A stretch of 52,071 bases of DNA from Gammaproteobacteria bacterium (lineage in GTDB: Bacteria; Pseudomonadota; Gammaproteobacteria; GCA-001735895), in contig JAAEPH010000438.1 in NCBI GenBank assembly GCA_024232855.1, forward strand, positions 1 through 52,071, given 5' to 3'. Below are positions 9,858 to 36,084 of this stretch, piece by piece. Each line of letters begins with the position of its first letter. Within the stretch, counting starts at the first letter, position 1. A program made the translations under genes and the position numbers. Under the pieces are notes generated by a model that did no database searches, had not been told where the DNA came from, and saw nothing but the letters and a program-made list of their open reading frames with translations.

Positions 9858-9903
9858 TCAGGGTCCCGGCGGTCTAGAGGCTAGACCAGACAAGGGTTTA
9901 TAA

Positions 9904-10845: not shown

Positions 10846-10863
10846 CCCGCATTTTATGCCAGC

Positions 10864-12525: not shown

Positions 12526-12550
12526 CTTATAATAGCCGCCAGGATTCCCG

Positions 12551-17550: not shown

Positions 17551-18695
17551 GCCAGCATCACTTTGTTTCGCAGGAGCCCTTCAATCCCCATTCGATCGAG
17601 GCACTGACGCCGGTTCAGGAAAAGTTCTACATGGCGTCGCAATGGCAGTTGATGTGGTGGAAGCTGCGACGCCACCGTCTCGCCGTCATCTGCGGCGTTA
17701 TCCTTGCCCTGAACTACGCCACGATCATGTTCAGCGAGGTGATCGCCCCTTATAACCTGCACACGCGCAATACCGATTATGTCTATTCGCCGCCGCAGTC
17801 AGTACACCTGTTTCACGAGGGCGAGTTTATCGGCCCCTTCGTTTACGGGCGCGGTTACGAGCTCGATATGGATATCCTCAGACGCAACTACCCGGAGAAC
17901 CGCGACCAGGTGCTGCCGCTGCGTTTTTTCTGTTCGGGCGACCCTTATCGCTTCTGGGGAATGTTCGACGCCAGTTTTCACCTGGTTTGCCCGCCGGACA
18001 ACGGCACCTTTTTCCTGCTCGGCACCGATCGCCTCGGGCGCGACATGCTTTCGCGGATCACCTACGGTGCACGCATCTCGCTGACGATAGGACTGGTCGG
18101 GATTCTGATCAGCTTCACCTTCGGTATCATCATCGGCGGGCTTGCCGGTTATTACGGGGGCTGGGTCGATGCAATTGTGCAGCGATTGATCGAAGTCATT
18201 CGCTCCTTTCCGGAGCTGCCGTTGTGGATGGCGTTGTCGGCGGTGCTGCCGGTCAACTGGAGCCCGTTGCTGATTTTCTTCGGCATTACCGTGATCCTGG
18301 CGATGCTCGACTGGACCGGGCTGGCGCGCGCGGTTCGCTCCAAGTTGCTGTCGCTGCGCGAAGAGGATTACTGTGCCGCGGCCGAGATGGTGGGCGCGAA
18401 GCCGGGCCGGATCATCGGGCGGCACCTGTTGCCGGGCTTTATGAGTCATTTAATCGCCTCGGCAACCCTTTCGGTGCCAGCCATGATTCTGGGTGAAACT
18501 GCCCTCAGTTTCCTCGGTCTCGGGCTAAGACCGCCGATTACCAGTTGGGGTGTGCTGCTGAACGAAGCGCAGAACATCAGCGTGGTTGCGCTTTATCCAT
18601 GGTTGCTGTATCCGGTGGTTCCGGTCATCCTCATAATCATTACATTCAATTTTTTCGGTGATGGATTGCGCGATGCTGCAGATCCCTACAGGTAG
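17547..18695 (+). CDS. ABC importer permease 2 (OppC/YejE-like)
   Basis: A 382-residue inner-membrane permease of the OppC/YejE type. It has an N-terminal cytoplasmic tail ending in WWKLRRHRLAVICGVILAL (first helix) and a ~100-residue periplasmic domain containing FFCSGDPYRFWGMF and LVCPPDNGTFFLLGTD. The conserved GTDRLGRDMLSRITYGARIS precedes the transport domain, and the ATPase-contacting loop is EEDYCAAAEMVGAKPGRII. Its ATG overlaps the previous stop (ATGA). The large periplasmic insertion is typical of YejE-like permeases rather than DppC. The next gene starts three bases after its stop. Confidence 0.93.
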   Translation: MSQHHFVSQEPFNPHSIEALTPVQEKFYMASQWQLMWWKLRRHRLAVICGVILALNYATIMFSEVIAPYNLHTRNTDYVYSPPQSVHLFHEGEFIGPFVYGRGYELDMDILRRNYPENRDQVLPLRFFCSGDPYRFWGMFDASFHLVCPPDNGTFFLLGTDRLGRDMLSRITYGARISLTIGLVGILISFTFGIIIGGLAGYYGGWVDAIVQRLIEVIRSFPELPLWMALSAVLPVNWSPLLIFFGITVILAMLDWTGLARAVRSKLLSLREEDYCAAAEMVGAKPGRIIGRHLLPGFMSHLIASATLSVPAMILGETALSFLGLGLRPPITSWGVLLNEAQNISVVALYPWLLYPVVPVILIIITFNFFGDGLRDAADPYR

Positions 18696-18698
18696 ACC

Positions 18699-19577
18699 AT
18701 GCAGGTAGATTTTCTGCAACGCGAAGCCTGTCCCCTGTGCCAATCGGGGCAATCACATACTTTATGCGATCTCGACTACGACGAGCCGAAGCTGAAGGCG
18801 TTTATCGAGCATTTTTACCAGGGGCGAATCGGTAAAACGACCTTGCTGCGGGGGCGCTACCGGGTAGTGAAATGCGGCCAATGCGGTTTCGTCTACCAGG
18901 ATCCGATTCTCGGTGACAAGGGCATGCAATTGTTGTACCACGACTGGGTAGACCAGGAGCATAGCCTGCAAAAGAAAAAAAATGCACCGGCAAAACTCTA
19001 TCAGCAATATGCCGGGCAAATTACGACATTATCCCGGCTCTTCGACAAGCCGCCGGCGCAAACGCGCGTGCTCGACTTCGGCATGGGCTGGGGCTATTGG
19101 TGCCGGATGGCGCAGGCGCACGGTTACGATGTCAGCGGATATGAATTGTCGTTCGAACGTTGTAAACATGCCCGCCAGATGGGGCTGAGGGTGATCGACA
19201 ACCTGGCGCAAAGCGAGAATCAATTCGATTTCATTTTTGCCAACCAGGTGTTTGAACATCTCGCTGAACCGGTACAGGTGTTCAGTGAGCTGTACCGTTG
19301 TCTCAAGGACGATGGCATAGTCTACCTGCGCGTGCCGGACGGCCGTGGTGTCGACAGCCGATTGCAACGCCACGGATGGTCACCCGGGTTCGACGCGATT
19401 CATCCTCTTGAACACATCAATTGCTTCACCCGGAAAACACTGATCGACCTTGCCGCCAGCACCGGTTTACATCCCTTTAATCCGCCGTTGCGGCTGAAAT
19501 GGGGTGGAATCCGGGGAGGAATCCGCCGCGAAATTTCGGATCGCTGGTTCACGACCCACCTGATGTTCAGGCGTTAG
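18699..19577 (+). CDS. Class I SAM methyltransferase with N-terminal zinc ribbon
   Basis: A 292-residue protein. Four cysteines in CPLCQSG (near residue 12) and CGQCGFVYQDP (near 60) form a zinc-ribbon-like head. The Rossmann methyltransferase core follows: VLDFGMGWGYW (motif I), YELSFERC, FIFANQVFEHLAEPV (motif IV) and LKDDGIVYLRVPDG. Methyltransferases with such heads often act on sugars or small molecules in surface-glycan clusters. Its start is three bases after the permease gene, so it is probably read with the importer operon. Its TAG stop (19575-19577) lies in the TTAG flank of element R4. Confidence 0.85.
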   Translation: MQVDFLQREACPLCQSGQSHTLCDLDYDEPKLKAFIEHFYQGRIGKTTLLRGRYRVVKCGQCGFVYQDPILGDKGMQLLYHDWVDQEHSLQKKKNAPAKLYQQYAGQITTLSRLFDKPPAQTRVLDFGMGWGYWCRMAQAHGYDVSGYELSFERCKHARQMGLRVIDNLAQSENQFDFIFANQVFEHLAEPVQVFSELYRCLKDDGIVYLRVPDGRGVDSRLQRHGWSPGFDAIHPLEHINCFTRKTLIDLAASTGLHPFNPPLRLKWGGIRGGIRREISDRWFTTHLMFRR

Positions 19578-19746
19578 CCCGTATTTCTCACCAGCTGGTC
19601 CACGACGCAGGATTACTCAATAAAGGTTCTCGCTGAGGCGCGGAGCACGCGGAGTGGTAAAGAGGTTGTCGAAATCTGAATTAGAGATGACCAGGCGCCC
19701 ACCCTGCAAATTGCCCTCAGCGCTCTCCGCGCCTCCGCGAGAACCT
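19578..19746. repeat. Palindromic element R4, GAGGCGC type
   Basis: The left terminal repeat CCCGTATTTCTCACCAG (19578-19594) has a TTAG flank (19574-19577) that contains the methyltransferase stop codon. A second inverted repeat of 22 bp with one mismatch runs 19624-19645 against 19725-19746 (core TTCTCGCTGAGGCGCGGAG and its complement). No matching right terminal arm was found, so the right border is unclear. It lies between two convergent genes and could form a stem that acts as a two-way transcription terminator; that role is inferred. Confidence 0.7.
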
Positions 19747-19779
19747 CCCCAGGGAAGCGCCTGCAGGCCAGCCCACATC

Positions 19780-22419
19780 TCAGGCGTTAGCGAGCAAATG
19801 CTGGAAATGCTCGTTGCCTTGCTGCATCTCGGCGAAGGAACCCTTGTCGAGGAGTTTGCCGCGTTCCAACACCATGACGGTGTCGAATTGTTCGGCCAGT
19901 TGTACGCGCCCGAGTACCCATAGAATACCCTTTTGTGCCATCGCGTTTCTGACGTTTACGATGAGACGGCGTTCACTGGACGGATCGAGACTCGACAGGG
20001 CCTCGTTTACCACCAGCATATCCGGTGCCTTCAGCAATGCGCGCGCCAGCCCCAGTTTCTGACGCTGAATCGAAGACAGGCGACCGCCGGCGACGCCCAC
20101 TTCGTAGTGCAGGCCTGCCTCGATGATGTCGTTGCGCAATTCCAGGCTTTCGACCACATTGGCGATCAGGTTGTTTATCTTCCGCTGGGCATGCGCCTGC
20201 CCGTAGGCGAGTTTGCCGAAGAGGATATTATCCTGGATTGAAATGCGCGGGTTGTAGTTGGCCTCGTCGAAAAACTCGATGCCGAGATCTTCTTTTGCAG
20301 CAAGTTGATGGATCTTGCGGCGAGCCTCGAGGATACGCTGCCGGATGGGCTTGGTAATCAAACCCAGTCGATGCCTCGCGACGACGATTCTGAGTGGCAG
20401 TGAGATGAGTCGCTGCTTGTCGTCGGCCGGTAGATTTTCAAGGCCGTGCTGGCGTGATTGCTGTAACAACTTGTTGAATTCCGGCAGATCGTCGGCGTCT
20501 ATGAAGCTGAATTGTTCAAACAGCTCGCTGTCCGGTTCGACATCCGAAAACAGGTCAAGCATGATCTCCGTAATCTGCAGACCGGCGTTGAGGAACTCGT
20601 CATTGAGACCGCATTCAACGAGAATGGCCTGGATGGCCGGCGTTTGGATCAGTTGCTCCACATTGACGTTGTCACCGTAAACCGTGCCAAACAGCAGGTT
20701 TTCGTAAACGGTCATGTTGAGATTATACTTTTCGTGATCAAAGGGTTCGACCAGGCGCTCGATTTCCGGCTCTCTAAACTTGTCACGAAGCTGCATCCGC
20801 GCCTGCATGATGCGGTCGACGAGATCGAGGCTTTCTGATTGCTGCACGAACGAAAACAGACCGAACTGGTAGATCTCTTCGTCCAGTTCGACCATTTGCA
20901 ATATTCTGATGATTTCCGAACTCAGGTGCCGATGGCTGTCGAGTCCGAGCGCCAGATAATCTATCCAGTCCTCGTCATAGCGATCGGGCGAATTCCCGGA
21001 TCGCTGCGCGAGACTGCGTTCATGCTCGATTTGCTTGTCCACGGCCGCCTGTTCCGGCTTGACCGGTTGATGCTTGAGTCCATAACAAATGTTGTCATAG
21101 ACCGAGCCGTTGAACATGAAGGCCGCCGGGCCGACATAACCGAAACGTCTGCCGATTATGGCTTCGGGCAATTCCTCCATCTTGCTAACGCCGAGGGTGA
21201 TGTTGCCCGAAGTCGGATTGATCAGACGTGCCATCAGGAAAGCGAGTTCTTCCTTGCCGCTGTTGCCCAGCCCCACCGCGGCGCAATGCTGATTGATCGG
21301 AAATTTGAAACTGGTGCCGTCGATGCTGAAGTAGAGTCCGTCCTCGGAGTAGCGGATATTGTTTACCTGAATTTCGCGGTCGGGCAACTCGAGTGACTCG
21401 GGACGCTGATCGATGATGCTGGTATCGAGCATGTTGATCGGATTGAACTGCTGGATGACCTGGCTGTACTTGACACGAATATCCTCCAGGCGCTGGTAGT
21501 AGCGTAGCAGCTCTTTCCAGGGTCCGGAGAGATCCTTGTAAGCCACCAGCACGGCGACCATGGATCCGATCGAAAGGTCGCCTCGCAATACGAAATAGCC
21601 GCCCGCCGAGTAAAAGAAAAACGGCGTCAGCTGGGCGATGAAATTGTTCAGGAACTTGATGAAAAACTTGCGCTTGTATATCGCGAAACGTATCAGGTAA
21701 ATTTTGCCCAGGCGTTGGCTGATATGCGCGCGTTCGAAGTGGCTGGTATCGTTGGCGTGCACTTCCTCGATGCCGGAGATGGTTTCACCGATACGCCCGG
21801 AGAGGTTGCGCGCCACCGCGACGCGTTCCTTGGTGAGCGCATTGACGCGTTTCTGTAACCGGGGAATGACAATCAGCTGGAAAGGGTAGAGCGCGATCGC
21901 CGCCAGGCCAAGGAGGACATCCTGCTGAAAGATAAAAAACAGGTAGGTCAGCAGGGTGCCGCCCTGGAACACCGGCAGGGTGAAGGATTCACCGATGAAT
22001 TCGCCGAGCGGTTCGGTTTCGGCGGTTATCATCGGAATCAGCTCGCCCGAGGACACGCGTTTGAAATGAGGCTTCGGGAACAGCAGGATACGCCGGTAAA
22101 GCTCAAAGCGCAGGCGGCGCAACAGGTGTTCGCCGAGCGAACCTCGATAGACGTTCAAAAGGTACTTGAGGCCGCCGCTGCAAAGCACCACCAGCAAGAA
22201 TGTGAAACTGAGCAGCATCAGGTAGTTCAGGTTATCCAGTTCGTAACCGAAGATCGCCTCGGGGTAATCCGAGCCCGTGCCTTCGAGCAGGTTGATGATT
22301 CTCTTGGGAAGTTCGAGCGTAACGTAAACCAGTGGCAGGGACGCCAACGATATCAGCACCAGCAGAATCTGATCCTTTTTGCTGTGAGTCAGAATATACT
22401 TGAAAAGCGATGGTTCCAT
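19780..22419 (-). CDS. Exporter-type ABC protein with degenerate, expanded nucleotide-binding domain
   Basis: An 879-residue protein starting MEPSLFKYILTHSKKDQ; GGGA precedes this ATG closely, and a longer start at 22455 is possible. Residues ~1-320 form a six-helix exporter membrane domain. The ATPase part is unusual. Walker A is GLGNSGKEE (383-391) with Glu in place of Ser/Thr. The signature is LSSIQ (781-785). Walker B is MLVVNEALSSLD with Asn for Asp but the Glu kept. The switch position is Gly (837) instead of His. Between Walker A and the signature lie ~395 residues instead of ~100, with three related segments: SVYDNICYG, TVYENLLFG and SIQDNILFG. It may couple weakly to ATP or act as a sensor. 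It faces glycosyltransferase genes. Confidence 0.85.
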   Translation of the reverse strand: MEPSLFKYILTHSKKDQILLVLISLASLPLVYVTLELPKRIINLLEGTGSDYPEAIFGYELDNLNYLMLLSFTFLLVVLCSGGLKYLLNVYRGSLGEHLLRRLRFELYRRILLFPKPHFKRVSSGELIPMITAETEPLGEFIGESFTLPVFQGGTLLTYLFFIFQQDVLLGLAAIALYPFQLIVIPRLQKRVNALTKERVAVARNLSGRIGETISGIEEVHANDTSHFERAHISQRLGKIYLIRFAIYKRKFFIKFLNNFIAQLTPFFFYSAGGYFVLRGDLSIGSMVAVLVAYKDLSGPWKELLRYYQRLEDIRVKYSQVIQQFNPINMLDTSIIDQRPESLELPDREIQVNNIRYSEDGLYFSIDGTSFKFPINQHCAAVGLGNSGKEELAFLMARLINPTSGNITLGVSKMEELPEAIIGRRFGYVGPAAFMFNGSVYDNICYGLKHQPVKPEQAAVDKQIEHERSLAQRSGNSPDRYDEDWIDYLALGLDSHRHLSSEIIRILQMVELDEEIYQFGLFSFVQQSESLDLVDRIMQARMQLRDKFREPEIERLVEPFDHEKYNLNMTVYENLLFGTVYGDNVNVEQLIQTPAIQAILVECGLNDEFLNAGLQITEIMLDLFSDVEPDSELFEQFSFIDADDLPEFNKLLQQSRQHGLENLPADDKQRLISLPLRIVVARHRLGLITKPIRQRILEARRKIHQLAAKEDLGIEFFDEANYNPRISIQDNILFGKLAYGQAHAQRKINNLIANVVESLELRNDIIEAGLHYEVGVAGGRLSSIQRQKLGLARALLKAPDMLVVNEALSSLDPSSERRLIVNVRNAMAQKGILWVLGRVQLAEQFDTVMVLERGKLLDKGSFAEMQQGNEHFQHLLANA

Positions 22420-22464
22420 AATTTCCCGGTTGATGATTCTGATTGCCCGCAGCATCAGGCATGG

Positions 22465-22632
22465 CTAGCCCGTAAATCTCACCAGGATGACGGGGCCTCG
22501 CTTGTTCTTTGAATCCACAAGGGATCTTCTTCAGTCGGAAATACGCACTGTTATTCCGCTCCTTCAGAAAATCCCTTGTGAATCCAAAGCCCTGCGCGAT
22601 CATCCCGCCCCCTGGTGGGATTTACGGGCTAG
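22465..22632. repeat. Palindromic element R5, 168-bp copy inverted relative to R3
   Basis: The arms CCCGTAAATCTCACCAG (22469-22485) and CTGGTGGGATTTACGGG (22612-22628) pair with one mismatch, and CTAG flanks both sides. Length and interior match R3 in reverse complement, including GGATCTTCTTCAGTCGG, TTATTCCGCTCCTTCAG and CCAAAGCCCTGCGCGAT blocks. It lies between the divergent ABC protein gene and the glycosyltransferase, so it may separate or modify their promoters. A long open frame across it in the glycosyltransferase frame is repeat-encoded and not taken as part of that gene. Confidence 0.9.
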
Positions 22633-22691
22633 CAAGGCATACCGGGCGGGTGTACTATCGCGCATCATTCGATTTATATCAAATACAGGTT

Positions 22692-23939
22692 ATGCCCCCC
22701 AGGCTTGCTATCGTTCTCAAGGGTTACCCGCGCCTATCGGAAACCTTTATTGCGCAGGAAATCCGGGCGCTCGAAATGCGCGGATTCGAATTGTGCATCT
22801 TTTCGTTGCGTCATCCTTACGATCCCGCCAGTCATCCGATACACGCCGAAATCGAGGCCCCGGTCTATTATTTGCCCGAGTACGTCCATGACGACCCGAG
22901 CCGGGTCCTCGGCGCCGCGCTGAGGCTATGCTGGAAAGCGGGGTTCTGGCGGGCATTGCTGAGCTTTGGCGCGGACCTGTTGCATGAGCCGACCCGCAAT
23001 CGTATGCGGCGATTCGCCCAGGCCCTGGTGATGGCGCGCGAGATGCCTTCGTCGGTAGAGCATTACTACGCTCATTTCATGCATACGCCATCATCCGTGT
23101 GCTACTACGCTTCCATCATCAACCGGCAATCCTGGAGTATTTCTGCGCATGCCAAGGATGTCTGGACGATTAGCGAACGCGAGTTGCGTAAAAAACTGAG
23201 CGCCAGCGACTGGGTTGTCACCTGTACCGCCGCCAATGCAAGTTACCTGTCGAGTTTGAGCACGGTCGCCGACAAGGTGAGTCTGCTCTATCACGGTCTT
23301 GATTTCTCGCGCTTTGACCGCAATGACGCGGTAGCCGCGGAACGCGATGGTAACGATGCAGATGACGCGGTGCGCCTGATCAGCGTGGGGCGTGCGGTCG
23401 ACAAGAAAGGTTACGACGTCCTGCTCGCGGCGCTCGCCGAGTTACCGCCGACACTGTGTTGGCGCTTCGTTCACATCGGTGGCGGTGAATTGTTCGAGGC
23501 ACTGCAGGCGCAGGCGCGCGTACTGGGCCTCGAAGACCGCATCGAGTGGCTTGGCGCGCTGCCGCAAACCGAGGTTCTGGCGCAGTACCGCAAGGCAGAC
23601 CTGTTCGTACTACCGAGCAAGATTTCGGCCGATGGTGACCGCGATGGCTTGCCCAATGTGCTGATGGAAGCACAAAGCCAGGCGTTGGCCTGTCTGTCCA
23701 CGAATATATCGGGAATTCCGGAACTGATCATTCATGCTGAAAGCGGCTGGCTGGTCGAGCAAAAGGATAACCGGGAACTCGCTGCTGCGCTTGAGCGGTT
23801 GATATCCGACCCCGAATTGCGCTCCCGCCTGGGGCAGGCCGGATACGCCAGGGTGACGCAGGAATTCTCGATGGAGCGCGGCATCGACAAGCTGGTGCAG
23901 CGTTTGCAGCAGTCCGTGGAGCGGGGTCACGGTCGATGA
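22692..23939 (+). CDS. Glycosyltransferase family 4 protein (WcaL-like)
   Basis: A 415-residue GT-B enzyme beginning MPPRLAIVLKGYPRLSETF; the GYPRLSETFI start is typical of colanic-acid WcaL-type transferases. The C-terminal nucleotide-sugar half has LISVGRAVDKKGYDVLL, WLGALPQTEVLAQYRKADLFVLPS and DGLPNVLMEAQSQALACLST, including the E-x7-E-like region. I chose the ATG at 22692 because the upstream part of the frame lies in element R5. Its end overlaps the next gene by ATGA. It likely adds a sugar to a surface glycan at the cytoplasmic face; donor and acceptor are unknown. Confidence 0.9.
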   Translation: MPPRLAIVLKGYPRLSETFIAQEIRALEMRGFELCIFSLRHPYDPASHPIHAEIEAPVYYLPEYVHDDPSRVLGAALRLCWKAGFWRALLSFGADLLHEPTRNRMRRFAQALVMAREMPSSVEHYYAHFMHTPSSVCYYASIINRQSWSISAHAKDVWTISERELRKKLSASDWVVTCTAANASYLSSLSTVADKVSLLYHGLDFSRFDRNDAVAAERDGNDADDAVRLISVGRAVDKKGYDVLLAALAELPPTLCWRFVHIGGGELFEALQAQARVLGLEDRIEWLGALPQTEVLAQYRKADLFVLPSKISADGDRDGLPNVLMEAQSQALACLSTNISGIPELIIHAESGWLVEQKDNRELAAALERLISDPELRSRLGQAGYARVTQEFSMERGIDKLVQRLQQSVERGHGR

Positions 23940-24532
23940 GGCTGGTGTTACTGCGGCACGGCATGACCGCGTGGAACCTGGAGAAGCGCATCCAGGGCCG
24001 TATCGATCAGCCCTTGTGTGACGCTGGCCGACAGCAGCTGCGGGCGCTGACCGTGCCTGCCGATTACCTCGGCGACCGCTGGTATTGCAGCCCGTTACGG
24101 CGCGCCGTCGAAAGTGCCGAGCTGATGGCCCTGCGCGATGTTCACGTCGAGCCCGCGTTGATCGAAATGGACTGGGGCGACTGGGAGGGAGAGGTGCTCA
24201 AACCACTGCGCAAACGCATCGGCGAGCCGATGCGCACGAATGAACGACGTGGACTCGATTTCCGCCCGCCTGGCGGGGAGAGCCCGCGACAGGTGCAGGC
24301 GCGCTTACAACCCTGGTTACGGCGGATCGCGAAAACCGGGGAGAATACCGGCGCGGTCGTGCACAAGGGAATTATTCGTTGTATTTATGCGCTCGCCTGC
24401 CACTGGGACATGTGCGGTGAAACACCGGTCGATTTCGCCTGGGACGCGCTCCACCAGTTCGAACTGGACCCCGACGGAACATTGCTCAACAGCTACAACG
24501 CCATTCCGTTGGCTTCGAAGGGGACAGATTAA
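23936..24532 (+). CDS. Histidine phosphatase family protein
   Basis: A 198-residue protein of the phosphoglycerate-mutase-like branch. The LRHG motif (H8) is in MRLVLLRHGMTAWN; SPLRRAVESAEL, EMDWGDWEGE and VVHKGIIRCIYAL complete the catalytic pocket. In the last, Lys sits where most members have Ser/Thr before the second catalytic His-Gly. ATGA overlap couples it to the glycosyltransferase, so a sugar-phosphate substrate is plausible. The final residues ASKGTD and the stop are encoded by a 24-bp palindrome at 24520-24543, so the C-terminus looks replaced or extended by repeat sequence. Confidence 0.85.
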   Translation: MRLVLLRHGMTAWNLEKRIQGRIDQPLCDAGRQQLRALTVPADYLGDRWYCSPLRRAVESAELMALRDVHVEPALIEMDWGDWEGEVLKPLRKRIGEPMRTNERRGLDFRPPGGESPRQVQARLQPWLRRIAKTGENTGAVVHKGIIRCIYALACHWDMCGETPVDFAWDALHQFELDPDGTLLNSYNAIPLASKGTD

Positions 24533-24543
24533 AATCTGTCCCC
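24520..24543. repeat. Short GGGGACAGATT palindrome
   Basis: GGGGACAGATT (24520-24530) and AATCTGTCCCC (24533-24543) form perfect 11-bp arms with a 2-base loop. The palindrome contains the stop codon of the histidine phosphatase gene (TAA at 24530-24532). Similar palindromes are scattered in many proteobacterial genomes, often beside REP-associated transposase sequences; that link is recalled, not shown here. It lies between convergent genes and could help terminate transcription, though no T-run follows. Confidence 0.6.
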
Positions 24544-24557
24544 GAGGGTTCAGGGCT

Positions 24558-25337
24558 TTAGTCGGGTGTTTTCCAGATCGTGGGAGCATCGATCCAGGCG
24601 GCGGCCGGATGCTCCTGCAGGAATGCGAGCAGGTTTTCGAGGAAACGCCAGACCGCTTCGTCTTGCACCAGGTGATGGGTGAGTATGCCGGTCGGTTCGT
24701 CGAAGTCGCGATATCCGAGGCGTCGCGCGATGAGGTGCTGGACTAAAATTGCGATTGCCGGGTAGATGCCGATGAAACCGCCTTTGTGACGCCAGTGCAC
24801 CGGGTCCAGGTGCGTGTTCACCTGCAACAGGTGTGGCGAGGGATTGGCCATGCGGCGCACTTTCATGGTTGATATACCGCTGATGCCAATCGCGGGAAGG
24901 TGCCCTAGCACGCGTTCGTCAATGCGATTCCAGGGTGGCACCAGTACCGGCGTGAAGCGCGCGGCGAAGTTTTGTTGAAGAATCTGATAACCCCTTGTCA
25001 GGTCGGCAACGATATCCGTGGTCGCGCGCATGCCGCCGAGTTCCAGTTTGCGTACGCCGGGTGGGGCGTGGCTGTCGTGGGCATAGCCGTGCTGCAGTAC
25101 GCAGCTGTGAGCATGCGCTTGCAGGTAGTCGCCCAGTCCGGTTTCGAGCCGCGCGGGAATGACGGCAAGCGCGAGCGGCGCCGCGTACTGCCGCCCCTGC
25201 CGTAGTAGCCGTTCGAGCCGTTGGCTGGCTTTGACAGCGTCGTCATCGCGCCACCAGAAACGCGCCTGCAGACCGGCATCTCCCCAGTTATCGAGTTCGC
25301 GGCGTAACCAGTCCCAGGCCTGCGCCGGTGCGATCAA
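24558..25337 (-). CDS. Polysaccharide deacetylase family protein
   Basis: A 259-residue protein with NodB-like features: FWWRDDDAV (metal and base aspartates near residue 27), VLQHGYAHDSH (His motif), VLVPPWNRID and a late ILTHHLVQDEAVW. There is no signal peptide, so it appears cytoplasmic or works with lipid-linked sugars at the inner leaflet. Its ATG overlaps the stop of the preceding glycosyltransferase by ATGA, so it is the third gene of a tight minus-strand operon. It probably removes acetyl or other N-acyl groups from a sugar built by the neighbouring transferases; that substrate is inferred. Confidence 0.85.
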   Translation of the reverse strand: MIAPAQAWDWLRRELDNWGDAGLQARFWWRDDDAVKASQRLERLLRQGRQYAAPLALAVIPARLETGLGDYLQAHAHSCVLQHGYAHDSHAPPGVRKLELGGMRATTDIVADLTRGYQILQQNFAARFTPVLVPPWNRIDERVLGHLPAIGISGISTMKVRRMANPSPHLLQVNTHLDPVHWRHKGGFIGIYPAIAILVQHLIARRLGYRDFDEPTGILTHHLVQDEAVWRFLENLLAFLQEHPAAAWIDAPTIWKTPD

Positions 25338-26473
25338 CTGCCTGCCTCCGTTGCTGCGAGCCAGCGTGACACCATCAGCGCGCTGTTGCGGGCGCCGTCG
25401 AGGTTTGCCGCAAACGCCGAATGTCCCTTATCCGCCTTCGCCATTGCCCGGGCCAGGGTGTCGGCGTTCAAGTCCTGTTGCGCAAGCGCAACCAGGCGCC
25501 CGCGATCCTGCAGCCGCAGTGCGCGCAAGGTTTGCTCGATCTCGTCCGCTTCGGCGAAGGGAATGACAACGGACGCGGTGCCGCTGCTGAGAATGTCGGT
25601 GACCGTGTTGTAACCGGCCTGCGAAATCGATAGGTGGGCGCGTTTGACCAGTTCGCTGAAATCGGGCCGATTGCGCTCGACGCGGATACCAGGCCCGGCC
25701 CGGCGCTGCAGCTCTTCGAACTTCGCCGCCGAAACCGCGGGACTGACCAGCAGCCGCCAGCGCAGGTTATGCAATATCGACAGGGGTTTTGCTGCAATCG
25801 CAGTCTGCAAAATTCGCAATCCGGTGGCACTGCCGCCCGCTGAAACCAGCACTTCGCCGTTGCCTTCATCTGCCGCTGGGGACATAGGTTCGCTGGCGCA
25901 GATGTAGCCGCTGTAGTAAAGCTTGTTTTCGATGCGCTGTGCGGGTGCAAAGCTGTCGGCCAGCTGCGCGACAGTTTCGTCACCGTGCACCAGTACGCGA
26001 TCGTAGTATTTCTCGATCAACTCGCATATTTCGCGGTTGCGCCCTGGCTTCGACTTGGGTTGCAGAATGTCCCGAATCGATGCAATCACCTGCACGCAGC
26101 TGTCGCTGTCGCGGGCGGCCTGCAGTAGCGGCAGCAACTCGAAGCGCAACATGCGTCTGCCGAAAGGGAAGGTTTCCGTGATCAATACCTGCGGCGCGAA
26201 GGCCGTGAACAGGTCGAGCAACTGCTGCCTGCGCCGATCGCGCCATGCATCGTCGATTTCGTTGCCATCGGCATCGAGCAGATGCTTGAAACTGCTATCG
26301 GCGCTGTATAGAGGGGGAAGTTGTCGAACTCGAACGGTGCCCGGCGTGGCTACCGCCCGCGGCATTCCACCGGATACCAGTTCCACCTGGAATTCCTGCT
26401 GCGCGAGCGCGGCTGCCAGCTGCAGTGAGCGTTGCAGGTGACCAATGCCGAGCAGGTGCTGGACATGGATCAA
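25334..26473 (-). CDS. MurG-like predicted glycosyltransferase (COG4671 type)
   Basis: The earliest conventional start is a TTG at 26473, giving 379 residues beginning IHVQHLLGIGHLQRSLQLA. The nucleotide-sugar half includes VLVSAGGSATG, ISQAGYNTVTDILSSGTASV and VIPFAEADEIEQTLRA, the GT28-like core. The family normally starts a few residues earlier (SKPRRVLIHVQHL). Those residues are present in frame, and a CCGGAG is followed after six bases by an in-frame ATC at 26494, so a rare ATC start is possible. It is a paralogue of the gene just upstream and is coupled by ATGA to the deacetylase. Confidence 0.85.
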   Translation of the reverse strand: MIHVQHLLGIGHLQRSLQLAAALAQQEFQVELVSGGMPRAVATPGTVRVRQLPPLYSADSSFKHLLDADGNEIDDAWRDRRRQQLLDLFTAFAPQVLITETFPFGRRMLRFELLPLLQAARDSDSCVQVIASIRDILQPKSKPGRNREICELIEKYYDRVLVHGDETVAQLADSFAPAQRIENKLYYSGYICASEPMSPAADEGNGEVLVSAGGSATGLRILQTAIAAKPLSILHNLRWRLLVSPAVSAAKFEELQRRAGPGIRVERNRPDFSELVKRAHLSISQAGYNTVTDILSSGTASVVIPFAEADEIEQTLRALRLQDRGRLVALAQQDLNADTLARAMAKADKGHSAFAANLDGARNSALMVSRWLAATEAGS

Positions 26474-26508
26474 TACGCGACGGGGCTTGCTGATCGATAA
26501 CTCCGGAG

Positions 26509-27714
26509 TCAGGCGGTAACGATAGCCTGTTCGTTGGGCTCGAGGTATTCGCGCACCATTTCGGCAATATTTTCGTGACCCGCTAGCAGGTCCGAGATTT
26601 TCGCGAAAGAAGGGTTGGGCTGGTTGGGCAGGGCGCGCAAGGCCGCCACCATTTGCTGCGCGGGACGTTCGCCCGCCGGATTGAGCATGCTGGCCAGGCC
26701 GAGTTTGACGGCGCGCTCGGCGCGAATCAGCTGCTCCTGGCGGGGTACCGAACGCGGCACGATGAGGGCGCGTTTGTCGAGCGTCAGGATTTCACAAAAG
26801 GTGTTGTAGCCGCCCATCGCCACGATCGCCACCGACTTTTTCATCAACAGCTCGATATGGCTGTCGAAGGTGAGGATTTCGACTTTTTCGAGCGCTTTGC
26901 AGCGATCGTGAAATTCCTGTTGTTCGAAGGCCTGCATGAAGGGCCCGGTCACGATAATGGCGCGATAGGGCAGTTCCGGTTCGGTTTCGTAGGCACGGAT
27001 GACCCAGTCGAGCATATCGACTCCGTCGCCGCCACCGCCGGCCGTCACCAGGATAAACGGTTCGCTGGGGTCGATCGGCGCCACCCGGTTGGGTTCGTTG
27101 GGAACTTCGCGCTCGAGGTAACCGGTATACGATATCCGGGCGAGAGTGGATGGCGACAGGTCGATGCCTGCGATCGGGTTGCCCATTTCCCTGAGGCCGT
27201 ACACCCAGATATCGTCATAGATGTCCTCGAGCACCGGCAGGACTTTCTTGCGTTCCCACTCCTGTTTTAACTGCTCGGTTTCGTCCATCACGTCACGCAA
27301 TCCAAGCACGTTGACGCAGCCCGCCTGTTTCAGCATTTCGAGGGTGGACCTGACTTCGCCCTGCAGGCCGGTGGGTTCCTTGTCGACGAGAAATATATCG
27401 GGTTTGAAGCTGACCGCGGTGTGGTAAATGATCGATTCACGCATCGCCAACGTCTGTTCCAGGTCGATATGCAGGCCGAGCGAAGTGTATTCACCGTTCT
27501 TTAACTTGATGACCCCGGGAATACGGACGAAATCGACACGCGCCCTGAAATCGAAGCTGCCGATGATCGGGGAGCCCGACAGGATCAGTACCGACAACCC
27601 CTTGTATCGAGCAACCAGCGAATGGGCAATCGAGCGACAACGCCGCAGGTGACCCAGGCCAAACGAATCGTGGCTATAGATTAGAATCCTGGACTGTTTG
27701 AGTCGCTCGGTCAT
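26509..27714 (-). CDS. MurG-like predicted glycosyltransferase (COG4671 type), first of operon
   Basis: A 401-residue protein starting MTERLKQSRILIYSHDSFGL; the GLGHLRRCRSIAHSL block matches the GIGHLQRSLQLAAAL of its neighbour. The donor-binding half contains FILVTAGGGGDGVDMLDW, SVAIVAMGGYNTFCEILTL and RSVPRQEQLIRAERA. I preferred the ATG at 27714 over one 57 bases upstream because homologous sequence begins there. Two adjacent transferases of one family suggest addition of two similar sugars or a heterodimer. The gene opens the minus-strand operon that ends in the deacetylase. Confidence 0.87.
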   Translation of the reverse strand: MTERLKQSRILIYSHDSFGLGHLRRCRSIAHSLVARYKGLSVLILSGSPIIGSFDFRARVDFVRIPGVIKLKNGEYTSLGLHIDLEQTLAMRESIIYHTAVSFKPDIFLVDKEPTGLQGEVRSTLEMLKQAGCVNVLGLRDVMDETEQLKQEWERKKVLPVLEDIYDDIWVYGLREMGNPIAGIDLSPSTLARISYTGYLEREVPNEPNRVAPIDPSEPFILVTAGGGGDGVDMLDWVIRAYETEPELPYRAIIVTGPFMQAFEQQEFHDRCKALEKVEILTFDSHIELLMKKSVAIVAMGGYNTFCEILTLDKRALIVPRSVPRQEQLIRAERAVKLGLASMLNPAGERPAQQMVAALRALPNQPNPSFAKISDLLAGHENIAEMVREYLEPNEQAIVTA

Positions 27715-27866
27715 ATTAGCGGTGTGGCAGTACTTTCGACGCAGACTACACTGAAATCGGTTTGAACGCACTGACGTTATGGCAATTTAAACAGGCAGAT
27801 CTGGAATTATTGACAAGCGGTCCGGTCATAGCATCATAATACTGAACAAGCCGGTGGGAGCCACCC

Positions 27867-28257
27867 CTGAACAAGAAAATTGTTAAAAACGATTCGCCAG
27901 TCCACTGGCCATTTTGGGGGCGCAGTCTCAAGGACAGGGTGCTGCCGGAACGCTTGCGCAAATCGATCCAGGATCAACAGGAACGCAGCGAAATCCTGAT
28001 CAGCGTGATTCAACTGGTCATCGTGGCACGGTGACAATGTCAACCTGGCCGCGCGCCTGGAGCAACTCAACAAGGACTACGGCACGCGCATTATCGTTGC
28101 ACAAAGTACCGTCGATGAAATTGCCGAGGGCAGCTTCGAGTTCCGGGAACTGGGGAAGTGTCGGTGCGAGGTTTACTGCGACCCGTCTCAATTTACACGG
28201 TCGCCAGCGATCGACCCGGGATTCAGCACGGCGAATAACGCCGCCGACCTGCCGTGC
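27867..28257 (+). pseudogene. Class III adenylate cyclase remnant with large internal deletion
   Basis: The first fragment reads NKKIVKNDSPVHWPFWGRSL ... LPERLRKSIQDQQERSEILI, an N-terminus seen in membrane class III cyclases. It is cut at about 28030 and joined to HGDNVNLAARLEQLNKDYGT ... TVDEIAEGSFEFREL, the end of the cyclase catalytic domain. The join is out of frame (TGA at 28032-28034). A further one-base loss after FRELG shifts the tail to EVSVRG ... VSIYTVAS. Transmembrane segments and most catalytic residues are missing. Element R7 begins right where the gene would end. A GGGAG six bases before a CTG at 27867 may mark the original start. A cyclic-nucleotide-binding gene lies 870 bp further on. 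Confidence 0.75.
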
Positions 28258-28471
28258 TTAGCCCGCATATCTCACCAGGATGGCGGGCCCTCACTTGTTC
28301 TTTGAATTCACAAGGTAGTTATTCAGGCGGGTTACGCACTGTTATTCCGCTCCTTCAGAAAATCCCTTATGAACCCAAAGCCCTGCGCGATGATGTGCAA
28401 GGAAGCACGAATGCGGTGGAGGCAGGAGCCGAGAACCGCCATCCCGTCCCCTGGTGAGATATGCGGGTTAG
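28258..28471. repeat. Palindromic element R7 with TTAG target duplication
   Basis: Perfect 17-bp terminal repeats CCCGCATATCTCACCAG (28262-28278) and CTGGTGAGATATGCGGG (28451-28467) lie between two TTAG tetranucleotides (28258-28261 and 28468-28471). TTAG is not its own complement, so this is the clearest target-site duplication of the family. The interior resembles R5 for ~130 bp and then holds ~60 bp not in R5 (around 28395-28440). The right TTAG contains the stop codon of the HD-domain gene on the minus strand (TAA at 28470-28468). Confidence 0.9.
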
Positions 28472-29124
28472 GCAGGACTACGCAGGTATTCCAAATAACG
28501 CGTCAGGTTGTTGCGCGCCTGTTGCTCATAGCGCTCGAAGAAGAAATCGGACAGGAAAAAGCGGGGGCGGGCCAACAACCTGCGTTGAAATCCGGTCTTG
28601 TTCAGTTGGTAATCGGCGTCGCTGAGATGAGGATTTTCAGCCCGTAGATTCAGACTGTCACGCAGGAATTCGTCCCAGGACAGCGCGAAACCCGATAAAT
28701 CGATATCGACCATGTAGATGCTGTCAGCGTCTTCGAGCGAGTTACCGTCATGCCGCGTCGCCACGATCAGTCGAGCGATCAACTGGCGCATCTCGTCAGC
28801 GTGAGCGTCGGCGGATAATTCCAGGTAAAGTTCTGCGCTCATGGCTTCGTTATCGCGCCGACCGGGTTCGAGGATGACATCGTGCATCCAGATCGCGATT
28901 TCCAGGGCGTCGGGGAAAGCAGTCAGCGACTCGCACTGCTCGAACATGGCCATGCAGTGTTCGATGTGTGCGAGTGTGTGGTAGTGTCGGTGCGATTCGT
29001 TATAGCCGGTTAACAGACGCTGGTGAATCGCGGCGCTCTCGTCGGTGGCGCCTGCGACAAGGTTGCGTTGCCAGAGCGCCTTAAAACGACTGAGCTGAGT
29101 GAATTTCTCGGTCGCGGGCGCCAA
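28468..29124 (-). CDS. HD-superfamily predicted phosphohydrolase (COG4339 type)
   Basis: About 218 residues from a TTG at 29124. It contains HYHTLAHIEHC, IWMHDVILEP (the HD pair), ATRHDGNSL and MVDIDLSGF, the metal-binding pattern of COG4339-type HD proteins. TTG is preferred because an AGGGA lies five bases upstream and it avoids overlap with the preceding gene; an ATG at 29178 would overlap that gene by 53 bases. The family is uncharacterised; HD proteins typically hydrolyse phosphoesters or nucleotides. Its place next to a cyclic-nucleotide-binding gene makes a nucleotide substrate attractive but unproven. Confidence 0.75.
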   Translation of the reverse strand: MAPATEKFTQLSRFKALWQRNLVAGATDESAAIHQRLLTGYNESHRHYHTLAHIEHCMAMFEQCESLTAFPDALEIAIWMHDVILEPGRRDNEAMSAELYLELSADAHADEMRQLIARLIVATRHDGNSLEDADSIYMVDIDLSGFALSWDEFLRDSLNLRAENPHLSDADYQLNKTGFQRRLLARPRFFLSDFFFERYEQQARNNLTRYLEYLRSPA

Positions 29125-29125
29125 T

Positions 29126-29635
29126 CTAGTCCCTGGCCTGTTGATTCGCCTGTCGCTGAAGCAATTGAAGCTGTTCATCGGTGCGTGTCAGCTTGTCGCT
29201 GAGCATGCGGATAACATCGAGTGCGACCTCGGAATTTTCGCGCAGTATGCGGAAAAACATTTCGGCCGTTATTTTCATTGCGAGCAGGTTTCCGTTTGCG
29301 ATCAGTGTCGCGATTCGCGGCGTGTTGTTGAGCAGGCCGATTTCACCGATCAGTTGATTTTGCGACAGGGTGAACGTCACGATAGGCCCTTTTTCAGTTT
29401 CGGTAACGATATCGACCGCGCCTTCCATGATGACGTAGGCGTAGTCGGCGCTATCGCCGCTATTGAAGACGATGTCGCCGTCCTGGAAAGAAACCATCTC
29501 GCTGGCGAAAGCGAGGAGCTTCAATTTCGAGGTTTCCATCTTGGCAAACATCGGGATTTTTCGAAGTAAATCTGTCTCTTCTGCGAGGTCCAAGTGCCTA
29601 GCTCCAAAGGTTGAATCGGCGTGAACTACGGTCAA
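29126..29635 (-). CDS. Stand-alone cyclic-nucleotide-binding domain protein
   Basis: A 169-residue protein made almost only of one cNMP-binding beta-roll. DLLRKIPMFAKMETSKLKLL leads in. FNSGDSADYAYVIMEGAVDI and NQLIGEIGLLNNTPRIATLI form the phosphate-binding cassette (GEIGLL then R-A-T/S). The final ~35 residues (SDKLTRTDEQLQLLQRQ) are a charged helix, possibly a coiled coil, and there is no helix-turn-helix. It is therefore not a CRP-like transcription factor but may bind a partner when cAMP or cGMP is present. It directly precedes the HD gene and is probably co-transcribed. Confidence 0.85.
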   Translation of the reverse strand: MTVVHADSTFGARHLDLAEETDLLRKIPMFAKMETSKLKLLAFASEMVSFQDGDIVFNSGDSADYAYVIMEGAVDIVTETEKGPIVTFTLSQNQLIGEIGLLNNTPRIATLIANGNLLAMKITAEMFFRILRENSEVALDVIRMLSDKLTRTDEQLQLLQRQANQQARD

Positions 29636-29737
29636 TTACTAAAGATTGGCACGAGGTCGCCTACAATTCAAGCGCAACTGCTTTGTCATTGTTGCAAAAA
29701 AGTTTGCAATAATAGTTACTTGTAGCCTGTTTCTCAG

Positions 29738-30448
29738 CTATTTTCTGGCCCAGGCGTAGTAACCCGATACCTGCAAGTCGCTGGTTGGGCGCCGTCTGAA
29801 TCGCATCGCGAGACGGTCCAGCCAACGTGCCGGCGACATTCCGAAGCGCTTTTCGATACCGTTTTTCCAGCCCTTGTGCAGGTTGAAAATGGAAGACCAG
29901 GGTCCGCGAATCGAGTACAGGGTTACCTCCGAGAAATCGCGCAGCATCCAGGCCATGCCATCACGGCTGAAGCGGTAGCCATCGGTAAAGCGAAGGTCGG
30001 CGGGTGCGTGGTAACGGAACAGGAATGGCAGGTGTAGCAGCAGGTAACCGCCCGGTTGCAACAGGCGGTGAATTTCCCGGATCGCGGCAAACGGGTCATA
30101 GACGTGTTCGAGCACGGAGAGGCAGACGATGCCGTCGTAGCGGTCGGGCCGTAGCCTGCCCGGCGCGCAGATATCGTCGATGATATCCGCCAGCGGATCG
30201 CCGACATTGATTTCCATGGTTTCAATGCGATCCCGCTCGAACAGATCAAAGCGCTCGCGTGTCGACTGGCCGACGTCCAGCACCATATCGCACTCGCTTG
30301 CCATAAAGCCGAGCTTGCCGGTCAGCAAGGCGCCACTGTCGTATGCGTAATCGTGGTTGACCTTAACTCGCCGAATCGCTTCGACGTGACGCGCCATGGC
30401 TGCAGCAGCTTCAGGATTGGGTCGCTGCAGGGAAGGGTTGTCAGCCAT
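29738..30448 (-). CDS. Class I SAM-dependent methyltransferase
   Basis: A 236-residue Methyltransf_11-like protein. MVLDVGQSTRERFDLF is a diverged motif I, followed by METMEIN-like acidic strand 2, VCLSVLEHVYDPFAAIREIH (motif IV) and LLQPGGYLLLHLPFLFRYHA. The motif I glycines are poorer than usual (DVGQST rather than DxGxGxG), so SAM binding should be checked. The C-terminal half resembles methyltransferases of glycan clusters. It is the last gene on the minus strand before the nap operon, separated by 183 bp of non-coding sequence. Confidence 0.8.
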   Translation of the reverse strand: MADNPSLQRPNPEAAAAMARHVEAIRRVKVNHDYAYDSGALLTGKLGFMASECDMVLDVGQSTRERFDLFERDRIETMEINVGDPLADIIDDICAPGRLRPDRYDGIVCLSVLEHVYDPFAAIREIHRLLQPGGYLLLHLPFLFRYHAPADLRFTDGYRFSRDGMAWMLRDFSEVTLYSIRGPWSSIFNLHKGWKNGIEKRFGMSPARWLDRLAMRFRRRPTSDLQVSGYYAWARK

Positions 30449-30581: not shown

Positions 30582-30635
30582 TTAGCCCGCAGCAGGAAGC
30601 CCTCGTGACGTAAAACGGTGAGCGATGGGGGCTAG
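30582..30635. repeat. Palindromic element R8, degenerate short copy
   Basis: TTAG then CCCGC (30582-30590) on the left and CGGTGAGCGATGGGGG then CTAG (30616-30635) on the right mark a 54-bp shrunken copy. GTGACGTAAAACGGTGAGCG matches, in reverse complement, the left end of R1. The right CTAG supplies the TAG stop of napC (30634-30632 on the minus strand). The rest of 30449-30581 has no gene; it includes the small palindrome CGTACATTTTGTACG at 30542-30556. Confidence 0.65.
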
Positions 30636-31252
30636 TTGCCGCCAATAACGGCGGTCGGATCGATCGAATGCATATCGGGCAGCTCGTGCGCGATACCCTT
30701 GTGACAGTCGATACAGGTGGCCCTGGTATCCAGTGCCTCGCTGTGCTGTTTGATCGCTCGTCGTCCCTGCTCGCCGAAATCCATCGAGTCGAAGTCGTGG
30801 CAGTTGCGGCATTCGCGCGAATCGGTGCTTTTCATCGCGCGCCAGACGTTTTGCGCCAGCTGCAGGCGTTTCGCCTCGAATTTTTCACGGGTATCGATCG
30901 AGCCCAGCGCCTTGTGCAGTAACTCGTTGCTGGCCTGGATTTTGCGCGCCACCTTGTAGTGCCATTCTTTAGGTACGTGACAATCCGGGCAGGTGGCGCG
31001 CACCCCGGTGCGATTGGCGTAGTGGATGGTGTCCTGGTATTCCGCAAAGACGTTGTCTTCCATTTCGTGGCAGGAGATACAGAACTCCTCGGTATTGGTC
31101 ATTTCCATCGCGGTGTTGAATCCACCCCAGAATATGATTCCGGCAAAAAAACCCGCCGTCAGCAAGGCGCCCAGTGAAAAGCTCACCGACGGCTTTTTCA
31201 GGGTTTGCCATAGCGACTTCAGGAAACTTTTTTCAGTAGAATTATTGCTCAT
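30632..31252 (-). CDS. napC: Membrane tetrahaem cytochrome c, NapC/NirT family
   Basis: A 206-residue protein with one N-terminal membrane anchor (about residues 25-45, SFSLGALLTAGFFAGIIFW) and four c-type haem sites: CISCH at 58, CPDCH at 88, CRNCH at 148 and CIDCH at 180. It oxidises quinol and passes electrons to the NapAB complex in the periplasm. It is last in the napFDAGHBC operon, 30 bp after napB. Its stop codon lies in the flank of repeat R8. Length and haem spacing are normal for NapC. Confidence 0.95.
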   Translation of the reverse strand: MSNNSTEKSFLKSLWQTLKKPSVSFSLGALLTAGFFAGIIFWGGFNTAMEMTNTEEFCISCHEMEDNVFAEYQDTIHYANRTGVRATCPDCHVPKEWHYKVARKIQASNELLHKALGSIDTREKFEAKRLQLAQNVWRAMKSTDSRECRNCHDFDSMDFGEQGRRAIKQHSEALDTRATCIDCHKGIAHELPDMHSIDPTAVIGGN

Positions 31253-31282
31253 AACGCTGTCCCAGGTTTGCTATTGCGAAGG

Positions 31283-31732
31283 CTACTCGCCGCTGATGGC
31301 GATGACGGGCTTGAACTCGTTTTCGACCAGTGGTTTGGCGTTGGCCTGCGGCACGTGACACTGAGTGCAGAAATATCGGCGCGCGGATACGTTCGCCAGG
31401 ACGTTGGCGTCACGATCCTCGAAATGAGTCTGGCTGATCTTGGTGGCGTCGTTCTTACGGTAGTTTTTCCAGCTGTGGCAGCCGAGGCACTTGTTTGATT
31501 TGAGATTGATCTTGTAGCGGTTGATCGAATGCGGCACCAGTGGTGGCTGCTGCACATAGTCGCGCACAATCGGTTCGCCGTCCTTGGGATAGTGCTTCAT
31601 TTCAGGGGATTTTGAATCCTGGTCGATGTCGACCGTTCCGCGCAGCGAGCTCAGCTCTGCCGCGGGCGATTGCAGGGTGAAGGCGAAGCCGGCGACGGTG
31701 GCGAGGATGATGAGGTATTTTATAGGTTTCAT
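31283..31732 (-). CDS. napB: Periplasmic nitrate reductase dihaem cytochrome c subunit
   Basis: A 149-residue secreted protein with signal peptide MKPIKYLIILATVAGFAFTL and a likely cleavage site near SPAA (residues 22-25). Two haem sites are visible, CLGCH (82-86) and CTQCH (122-126). VQQPPLVPHSINRYKI is a NapB hallmark with a distal haem-ligand histidine. It forms the electron-receiving small subunit of NapAB. It starts 5 bp after napH ends. Confidence 0.95.
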   Translation of the reverse strand: MKPIKYLIILATVAGFAFTLQSPAAELSSLRGTVDIDQDSKSPEMKHYPKDGEPIVRDYVQQPPLVPHSINRYKINLKSNKCLGCHSWKNYRKNDATKISQTHFEDRDANVLANVSARRYFCTQCHVPQANAKPLVENEFKPVIAISGE

Positions 31733-31737
31733 AGTGC

Positions 31738-32640
31738 TTACACTCCCGTGGAAGGGCTGGCTGCTTGGTTAGGAGAAGATCGAGATGAATCGGAACGATC
31801 GAAACGAATACCGAACTGAAAAACATCGAGCGCGCAAACATCGATGCAGCGCCCACAGTTGGTGCAGTTCGGAGAATTGATGACGGGACTCGTGTCCGCG
31901 CCCTTGAGTGCCGGGCGCAGTACCTGCTGCTCCGGGCAAACCAGGTAGCAATCCATGCAATCGTCGCATCGCGCGCGCGCGTCGGCGCGTACGCGCAGCA
32001 GGCTGTGCGTACCCAGCAGGCTGTAAAAGGCGCCCACCGGACACAGGTGGCCGCACCAGCCGCGTCGGCTGACGAACAGATCGAATAAAAATATCGCCAG
32101 CAGTATCAGCCAGGCGAGACCCGTGCCAAAGATAATGCCGCGATGAAACATGGAAACCGGGTTGACCAGTTCCCATGCGATGCCGCCGCTGACGAACGCG
32201 ATCACCATTGTCGCCAGCAGCATCAGGTAACGGGTATAGCGGGGCAGGCTGGTAGCACTGCGAAGTCCCAGCTTTTCACGCAGCCGGAACGCCAGGTCGG
32301 TCAGCAGGTTGACGGGGCAAACCCAGGAACAAAAAGCCCTGCCGCCGACGACAAAGTAAAACAGCGCCACAATCAATCCACCGATTATCGCTGTGCCTTG
32401 CGGAATATGACCGGCCGCCAGCGATTGCAGGATCAGGTAGGGATCGGTTAACGGCAGGGTTTCCAGGGTCAGGCTCGAATTCAGGTTGCCGGTGATGATC
32501 CAGACACCGAGCAGCGGGCCGACGAGAAACAATGCCATGATCGATAACTGGCTGAGGCGGCGCAATAACAACCATTTATGAGCCGCCAGCCACCCCTTGC
32601 GCCTGATCGCTTCGTATCCGGGGTAAGATGACTTTTTCAT
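31738..32640 (-). CDS. napH: Quinol dehydrogenase membrane component NapH
   Basis: A 300-residue inner-membrane ferredoxin-type protein with about four helices (for example [20 protein letters not shown] and [20 protein letters not shown]). The CSWVCPV and [13 protein letters not shown] motifs are typical of NapH. Two C-terminal 4Fe-4S clusters are visible: [16 protein letters not shown] and [16 protein letters not shown]. With NapG it forms a second electron route from quinol to NapAB. Its ATG overlaps the end of napG by four bases. Confidence 0.94.
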
Positions 32641-33446: not shown

Positions 33447-33465
33447 TAACCTGGATTACATCCGC

Positions 33466-36006: not shown

Positions 36007-36084
36007 TTCAGTCCTCCTTTGGACCTTTTCTGGACCCTGGTATGTAGCCGCGGTATGTCCCGCGAGCCGCCAGGTCATTAATCT

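Follow-up and report, generated by a model that had tools for sequence, protein, structure and literature searches.

Gene content of the locus

The window analysed here is a 52,071-nt stretch of DNA from a marine-type gammaproteobacterium (contig JAAEPH010000438.1, assembly GCA_024232855.1). We studied a locus within it that combines genes for glycan enzymes with those for an ABC exporter-fold membrane protein (below, ABC) and a stand-alone cyclic-nucleotide-binding protein (CNB). Our analysis showed that these genes recur together in three classes of Proteobacteria and that the locus is of the same kind as the surface-polysaccharide (PPP) cluster of Sinorhizobium meliloti; the first-pass annotation had spoken of an unnamed system, a description superseded by the correspondence in gene order. 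All the genes named in that annotation are present, as judged by Pfam matches, structure models and residue conservation (Table 1). Its borders, 18699–30448, proved too narrow, since they missed a Yej-type importer at 12708–18695.

Table 1. Features of the locus, in window coordinates
Feature	Position	Strand	Basis
YejF-like peptide-importer ATPase, two nucleotide-binding domains (NBDs)	12708–14648	+	Pfam ABC_tran x2 and oligo_HPY; ABC-linked homologues in gamma, beta and alpha loci
YejA-like solute-binding protein	14621–16552	+	SBP_bac_5
YejB-like permease	16552–17550	+	Conserved beside yejE across loci
YejE-like permease	17547–18695	+	OppC_N and BPD_transp_1; linkage conserved
MT1, S-adenosylmethionine (SAM) methyltransferase	18699–19577	+	Methyltransf_23
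ABC exporter-fold protein, core gene	19780–22455	-	Pfam ABC_membrane and two weak ABC_tran pieces
MITE-like repeat (resembling a miniature inverted-repeat transposable element), filling the divergent ABC/GT4a promoter region	22459–22638		Repeat copies in genome
GT4a glycosyltransferase, EpsE/WcaL-like	22692–23939	+	Pfam Glycos_transf_1; best NCBIfam match EpsE, under cut-off
HP, histidine phosphatase branch 1	23936–24532	+	Pfam His_Phos_1, E=9e-40
CE4-type deacetylase (deac)	24558–25337	-	AlphaFold-model fold match; invariant metal-site residues
mg1, MurG/YjiC-like GT-B glycosyltransferase	25334–26473	-	Pfam Glyco_tran_28_C; PDB profile matches YjiC and MurG
mg2, GT28-like protein	26509–27714	-	Pfam Glyco_tran_28_C; S. 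meliloti smb21265 counterpart by gene order
Relic of membrane class III cyclase gene	27810–28211	+	Alignment to intact cyclases of relatives
HD-superfamily protein, possible phosphodiesterase	28468–29127	-	Conserved HD residues
CNB, stand-alone cyclic-nucleotide-binding protein	29126–29593	-	Pfam cNMP_binding, E=1e-16
MT2, SAM methyltransferase	29738–30448	-	Pfam methyltransferase match

The deacetylase has no Pfam match and no relative by sequence in the PDB, and its family was assigned by fold. Its AlphaFold model (28 homologues in the alignment, pLDDT 95) matches the CE4/NodB enzymes PgdA, ArnD and chitin deacetylases, and R31, D33, D34, H84 and H88 are invariant in the 28 homologues, so that the NodB fold is accompanied by the Asp-His-His metal site of CE4 enzymes. 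The likeness to ArnD and other CE4 enzymes lies in this fold and metal triad, while sequence identity is about 9–16%. No signal peptide was seen in deac, which is cytoplasmic by appearance. For mg2, a PDB sequence search returned no relative. The transporter is of the ABC_membrane type; among the window proteins scanned there was no Pfam match to a Wzx/Wzy flippase or polymerase, or to ABC2_membrane (Wzm/Wzt), in agreement with the earlier view that this is not a standard capsule locus.

Three gene starts were revised: GT4a from 22509 to ~22692, because 22459–22638 is a MITE-like repeat; mg2 from 27771 to ~27714; and CNB from 29635 to ~29593. Similar MITE-like elements lie at 12550–12718 and 28255–28474, the latter adjoining the cyclase relic; they measure ~170–220 bp, have terminal inverted repeats and are present in about 40 copies in the host genome. 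Upstream of yejF we looked for a glycan initiation block (9081–11484) and found Asp/Glu racemase-like and MsrP/MsrQ-like proteins instead; in the upstream stretch examined, an epimerase gene at 11515–12525 is the only one possibly related to glycans. On the other side, the locus is bordered by a nap (periplasmic nitrate reductase) operon at 30632–36078, which is, judging from its translations, probably unrelated. The nearest loci found belong to uncultured Gammaproteobacteria and to the Olavius algarvensis Gamma 3 endosymbiont.

Conservation across Proteobacteria

A search seeded with an alignment of four ABC homologues recovered 72 genuine ABC loci spread over the gamma, beta and alpha classes; a further 28 loci came from alphaproteobacteria. 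Layouts were built with hidden Markov models, and frequencies were counted in the 46 loci that span 15 kb or more; counts of CNB in alphaproteobacteria refer to the 27 loci of sufficient length to judge. The recurring set, in shuffled order, comprises two GT4 glycosyltransferases (GT4a, 38 of the 46 long loci; GT4b, 27), mg1 and mg2 (31 each), deac (24), HP (34), CNB (35), the HD protein (16), a class III cyclase (12) and the Yej importer (individual genes in 16–22 loci, yejA in 21). The window-type layout, CNB-HD-cyclase-mg2-mg1-deac / HP-GT4a / ABC, can be set beside mg2-GT4a-GT4b-HP-mg1-deac...ABC-CNB in L043, yejFABE-mg2-GT4a-mg1-ABC-CNB in L071, and yejAF-deac-mg1-HP-GT4b-GT4a-mg2 divergent from ABC-CNB-MT17 in L044 (Nisaea denitrificans). 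A Phaeobacter plasmid match, an ABC transmembrane-only protein in a copper/type IV secretion context, was discarded, as were families F30, F34 and F39, whose apparent recurrence came from antisense open reading frames (ORFs) miscalled in GC-rich DNA.

In a phylum-wide sample, ABC was found in 27 of 398 genomes. Orthologues of mg2 (E≤2e-200) occurred in exactly four of 274 gammaproteobacterial genomes, the same four that have ABC, with the next best match at 7e-94. Chance would place ~0.04 cyclases in 20 kb (the host genome, 4.15 Mb in draft form, has eight PF00211 matches), and the co-occurrence of the locus genes is far above chance. The first-pass annotation had let its proposal of a single system stand or fall with co-occurrence in other genomes, and the 72 and 28 loci bear it out: the same families, differently ordered, in three classes, with mg2 and ABC jointly present. 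This support does not extend to the two methyltransferases that the proposal had included. MT1 is found in 15 of the 72 loci, mainly in the window's own gamma clade, and for MT2 a place near CNB is confined to L022 and L065; both are peripheral, MT2 probably lying outside the core. At the other extreme, six minimal loci (L048, L053, L056, L058, L068, L079) retain CNB and ABC alone, and therefore the CNB–ABC pair looks like the core.

Several loci carry further genes. A gamma subgroup around S66 LD-carboxypeptidase and purL genes (L036, L040, L041, L054, L055, L057, L073, L080, L083, L086) is without CNB, HD and deac, and several of its members add a GNAT acetyltransferase and an S58 peptidase; the purL linkage is likely old synteny. 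A formyltransferase-like protein (PF00551) lies between GT4a and ABC in L038, L039, L066 and L088, recalling the ArnA/ArnD formyl/deformyl pair. MT17, a small PF12692 methyltransferase, recurs near CNB or ABC (L035, L037, L043, L044, L052, L060, L064, L069, L081 and others), and F28, a 220–270-aa family with no Pfam match that is annotated in S. meliloti as a class I SAM methyltransferase, recurs near ABC or GT4b (L031, L038, L061, L062, L145, and L168 at 15055–15729).

Searches of plasmids with tblastn placed the ABC family in Rhizobium, Sinorhizobium and others. The order in R. leguminosarum and S. meliloti is nucleotide-sugar dehydrogenase-cyclase-(lyase)-yejFABE-mg2-GT4a-mg1-ABC-CNB, and on pSymB of S. 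meliloti 1021 (L174) GT4b and deac lie upstream (GT4b-deac-...-yejFABE-mg2-GT4a-mg1-ABC-CNB). In this strain the ABC gene runs through two reading frames (L174 33667–36433) and measures 2713 bp, where strain 2011 has 2712; the cyclase gene (20459–21813) looks frame-shifted too, and both may be errors of the reference sequence. With SMb21247 and SMb21249 as published anchors (PMC5498481), a count along the gene order gave GT4b as SMb21252 and mg2 as SMb21265, which fits the labels “glycosyltransferase” and “glycosyltransferase family protein” in Travin et al. 2023 (PMC10128002). According to the same paper, nine genes within smb21252–smb21271 are needed for PPP, a putative surface polysaccharide that guards against phazolicin; smb21252 and smb21265 mutants are about eight-fold more sensitive (MIC, the minimum inhibitory concentration, falls from 1.47 to 0.18 ug/ml). 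Seven of the nine PPP genes are induced under Myxococcus attack (PMC10315480). Our literature searches on this gene combination, or on smb21253/59/62/66/67/70, found nothing.

The CNB–ABC pair and the linked cyclase

The phosphate-cassette residues of CNB (G-E...R; G83, E84 and R93) are invariant in 43 CNBs, and its best PDB matches are the regulatory domains of cGMP- and cAMP-dependent protein kinases. In the window itself CNB is ~7 kb from the ABC gene. Across relatives, CNB lies on the same strand within 400 bp of ABC in 20 loci of the genome-contig set and in 21 alpha loci, and it is adjacent to or fused with ABC in 27 of 27 alpha loci. Eight ORFs have CNB fused to the C-terminus of ABC, and they are split between two clades of the CNB tree (the only statement that we draw from this tree, which has long branches and is not fully settled). 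Pfam recognises ABC_membrane, ABC_tran and cNMP_binding within a single 989-aa protein encoded on megaplasmid NC_008043 of Ruegeria sp. TM1040, and likewise within one protein of genome G507; the Ruegeria ABC_tran match is under the Pfam cut-off, which fits the degeneracy of the ABC NBD. That ABC is itself the target of CNB is best supported by fusion together with adjacency. In relatives, a CNB with intact phosphate-binding residues thus stands in or beside ABC, as expected of a cyclic-nucleotide-regulated ABC exporter, and this arrangement suggests that a cyclic nucleotide may control export through CNB on ABC.

The model of ABC (pLDDT 83) matches the type IV exporters TM287/288, TmrAB and MsbA over residues 11–888 (Z about 29, about 450 residues). 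Its NBD alone matches that of ComA (Z 29.9, 1.8 Å) in 239 residues spanning 352–886, and so the modelled NBD is complete and broken by a long insertion, of roughly 240–270 residues. The annotation had called this protein degenerate, and a census of 100 homologues extends that to its relatives: 5 still have the H-loop His, 17 the Walker A Ser/Thr, 23 the Walker B Asp and 16 the Q-loop Gln, and most of the signature glycines have given way to other residues. In the window ABC the motifs read GLGNSGKEE, VVNEA and GGRLSSIQRQ and the H-loop His is absent; a catalytically competent MsbA-type exporter would have all its Walker A/B, Q-loop, signature and H-loop motifs intact, which is not the case here. 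To judge from these motifs, ATPase activity has apparently been lost. Three NxLFG segments are near-invariant in the homologues and look like a partial internal repeat of the region after the Q-loop.

The cyclase gene between HD and mg2 is a relic, as first annotated. Positions 27825–28028 align to residues 9–76, and 28027–28211 to residues 411–472, of the L047 cyclase, which is intact at 472 aa, and hence about 335 codons were deleted internally, with a change of frame. The core of the catalytic domain is gone in the window and intact in relatives, where the cyclase (PF00211, E=5.5e-28) has the same place and orientation. These intact cyclases, together with the ABC–CNB fusions, strengthen the cyclic-nucleotide link that had been proposed. 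A cyclase lies within the locus in 11 of the 27 alpha loci too, including the annotated R. leguminosarum and S. meliloti ones, and the host keeps several intact class III cyclases elsewhere in its genome. The HD protein has no relative in Pfam, NCBIfam or PDB sequence searches; it conserves the H..H..HD..H..D residues, is presumably COG4339-like and could be a phosphodiesterase.

Proposed function and relation to known systems

Taken together, the evidence leads us to favour, with moderate confidence, an envelope-glycan synthesis and export locus of the S. meliloti PPP kind, with ABC under cyclic-nucleotide control. From the gene families we infer the following scheme, including its order of reactions, its product and sugar composition, the direction of transport, the ligand and the gating of ABC by CNB. 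GT4a (and GT4b where present), mg1 and mg2 would build the glycan on the cytoplasmic side; N-acetyl (or formyl) groups would be taken off by the CE4 enzyme, and HP would strip phosphate from an intermediate. The ABC-fold protein would then carry the product over the inner membrane, governed by cyclic nucleotide bound to CNB; the linked membrane cyclase would supply this nucleotide and the HD protein perhaps remove it. As the local cyclase is dead by deletion, the signal in the window organism may come from another host cyclase, or the control may be decaying. The small lipid- or nucleotide-linked sugar proposed earlier stays one possibility for the product, while the phenotypes of the rhizobial counterparts point to a surface barrier polymer. 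What the scheme offers is a cyclic nucleotide that switches export directly, rather than only via transcription.

Several observations weigh against this picture. Powered export is not assured, because the NBD looks incapable of ATP hydrolysis, and a polymerase, an initiating transferase and an outer-membrane exporter were all not found in the locus. CNB is not obligatory, since the ten long gamma loci of the S66/purL group have glycosyltransferases and ABC with no CNB in reach; rhizobia lack HP, the window's clade lacks GT4b, and the 27 sampled alpha loci have no HD. Many alpha cyclase matches are generic class III cyclases (66–90 bits), the CNB of HetC bound ppGpp, not cAMP (PMC10986499), and the smb numbers come from counting, not from locus tags.

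The state of the NBD leaves room for other roles of ABC. It could be the degenerate half of a heterodimeric exporter whose canonical half is encoded elsewhere, with the rest of the scheme unchanged: heterodimeric TM287/288 and TmrAB are among the top structural matches, and the host genome encodes many other ABC proteins. We doubt this, as no canonical half recurs across loci and degeneracy affects the Walker, H-loop and signature motifs of this one chain alike. ABC proteins have been repurposed before, in CFTR and SUR. Along similar lines, ABC could be a regulatory or channel-like scaffold in which cyclic nucleotide bound to CNB takes the place of ATP hydrolysis, either opening a path or gating a partner; this would account for a long, conserved protein with near-invariant NxLFG segments that has mostly lost its catalytic motifs, and for its fusion to CNB. 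We think it unlikely, given that 62 of the 100 homologues retain the Walker A Lys, that the fold matches active exporters and that ABC might pair with an intact ABC protein encoded elsewhere. An equally speculative extension would make the whole family a cyclic-nucleotide-gated glycan flippase or channel working without ATP hydrolysis, with CNB, be it separate or fused, as gate and a dedicated membrane cyclase as source of the signal; if true, it would be a bacterial parallel to the CFTR/SUR type of repurposing.

The product, too, could be of another kind, namely a small glycolipid or glycopeptide tied to peptidoglycan recycling, with Yej and S66 importing and processing re-used muropeptides. 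Apart from the linked Yej genes and the S66 LD-carboxypeptidase of ten loci, this idea draws on Agrobacterium tumefaciens, where YejBEF-YepA imports muropeptides and insertions in the glycan cluster raise the fitness of a yejABEF mutant (PMC9790009). In the same work, UDP-M5 and UDP-MurNAc pools were unchanged (PMC9790009); moreover, the Yej of the locus is a separate copy whose substrate is not known, and S66 is limited to one clade, so that we regard recycling as improbable. That the neighbourhood reflects ancestry, as inherited synteny with no functional link or as two unrelated operons, seems very improbable indeed: close relatives do have long stretches in common, including purL and Msr genes, but gene orders and strands differ in the three classes, and the mg2/ABC joint presence or absence and the gene fusion contradict it as well.

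The favoured reading, that of a PPP-like locus with a regulated ABC protein, can be set against known systems. MsbA/PglK/HepA-type exporters have the transmembrane and NBD fold of the window ABC, which in turn falls far under the NCBIfam cut-offs and differs in its large NBD insertion and degenerate motifs. We found no description of the CNB–ABC pairing in the literature searched, and the nearest precedent is HetC of Nostoc, whose ABC exporter function requires a CNB domain (PMC10986499). There, however, the CNB is N-terminal and binds ppGpp, and the protein also contains a C39 peptidase and depends on its intact ATPase (PMC10986499). In window-type ABC proteins CNB is separate or C-terminal, no peptidase is present (Pfam gives ABC_membrane and ABC_tran alone in the window ABC) and the NBD is degenerate; it is unusual for a conserved ABC exporter to combine a degenerate ATPase site with a cyclic-nucleotide domain fused to it.

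The closest relative is the PPP cluster, which groups homologues of GT4b, deac, yejFABE, mg2, GT4a, mg1, ABC and CNB on pSymB with a linked cyclase. The window shares with it the mg2, GT4a, mg1, ABC and CNB families, the CE4 deacetylase and a linked Yej importer; it differs in having HP and HD, another gene order and a dead cyclase, and in lacking the nucleotide-sugar dehydrogenase. GT4b, the smb21252 homologue, is present in many other loci and is lacking in the locus of the window and in its clade, the rest of the genome not having been searched; for this reason we call the window the same kind of locus as PPP, and not a complete PPP cluster. The CNB–ABC pair is not discussed in the available portions of PMC10128002. 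By description, Atu2577–Atu2592 of A. tumefaciens is a further relative: it has glycosyltransferases, a putative ABC exporter and a UDP-GlcNAc dehydrogenase, and is described as the source of an uncharacterised glycan on which resistance to phenazines depends (PMC9790009); its match to the window rests on the orthology to PPP genes called by Travin et al. (PMC10128002). The orphan rhizobial locus, so far known only from genetics (tolerance of an antibiotic peptide and of phenazines, induction under predation), is thereby tied to a wide proteobacterial system.

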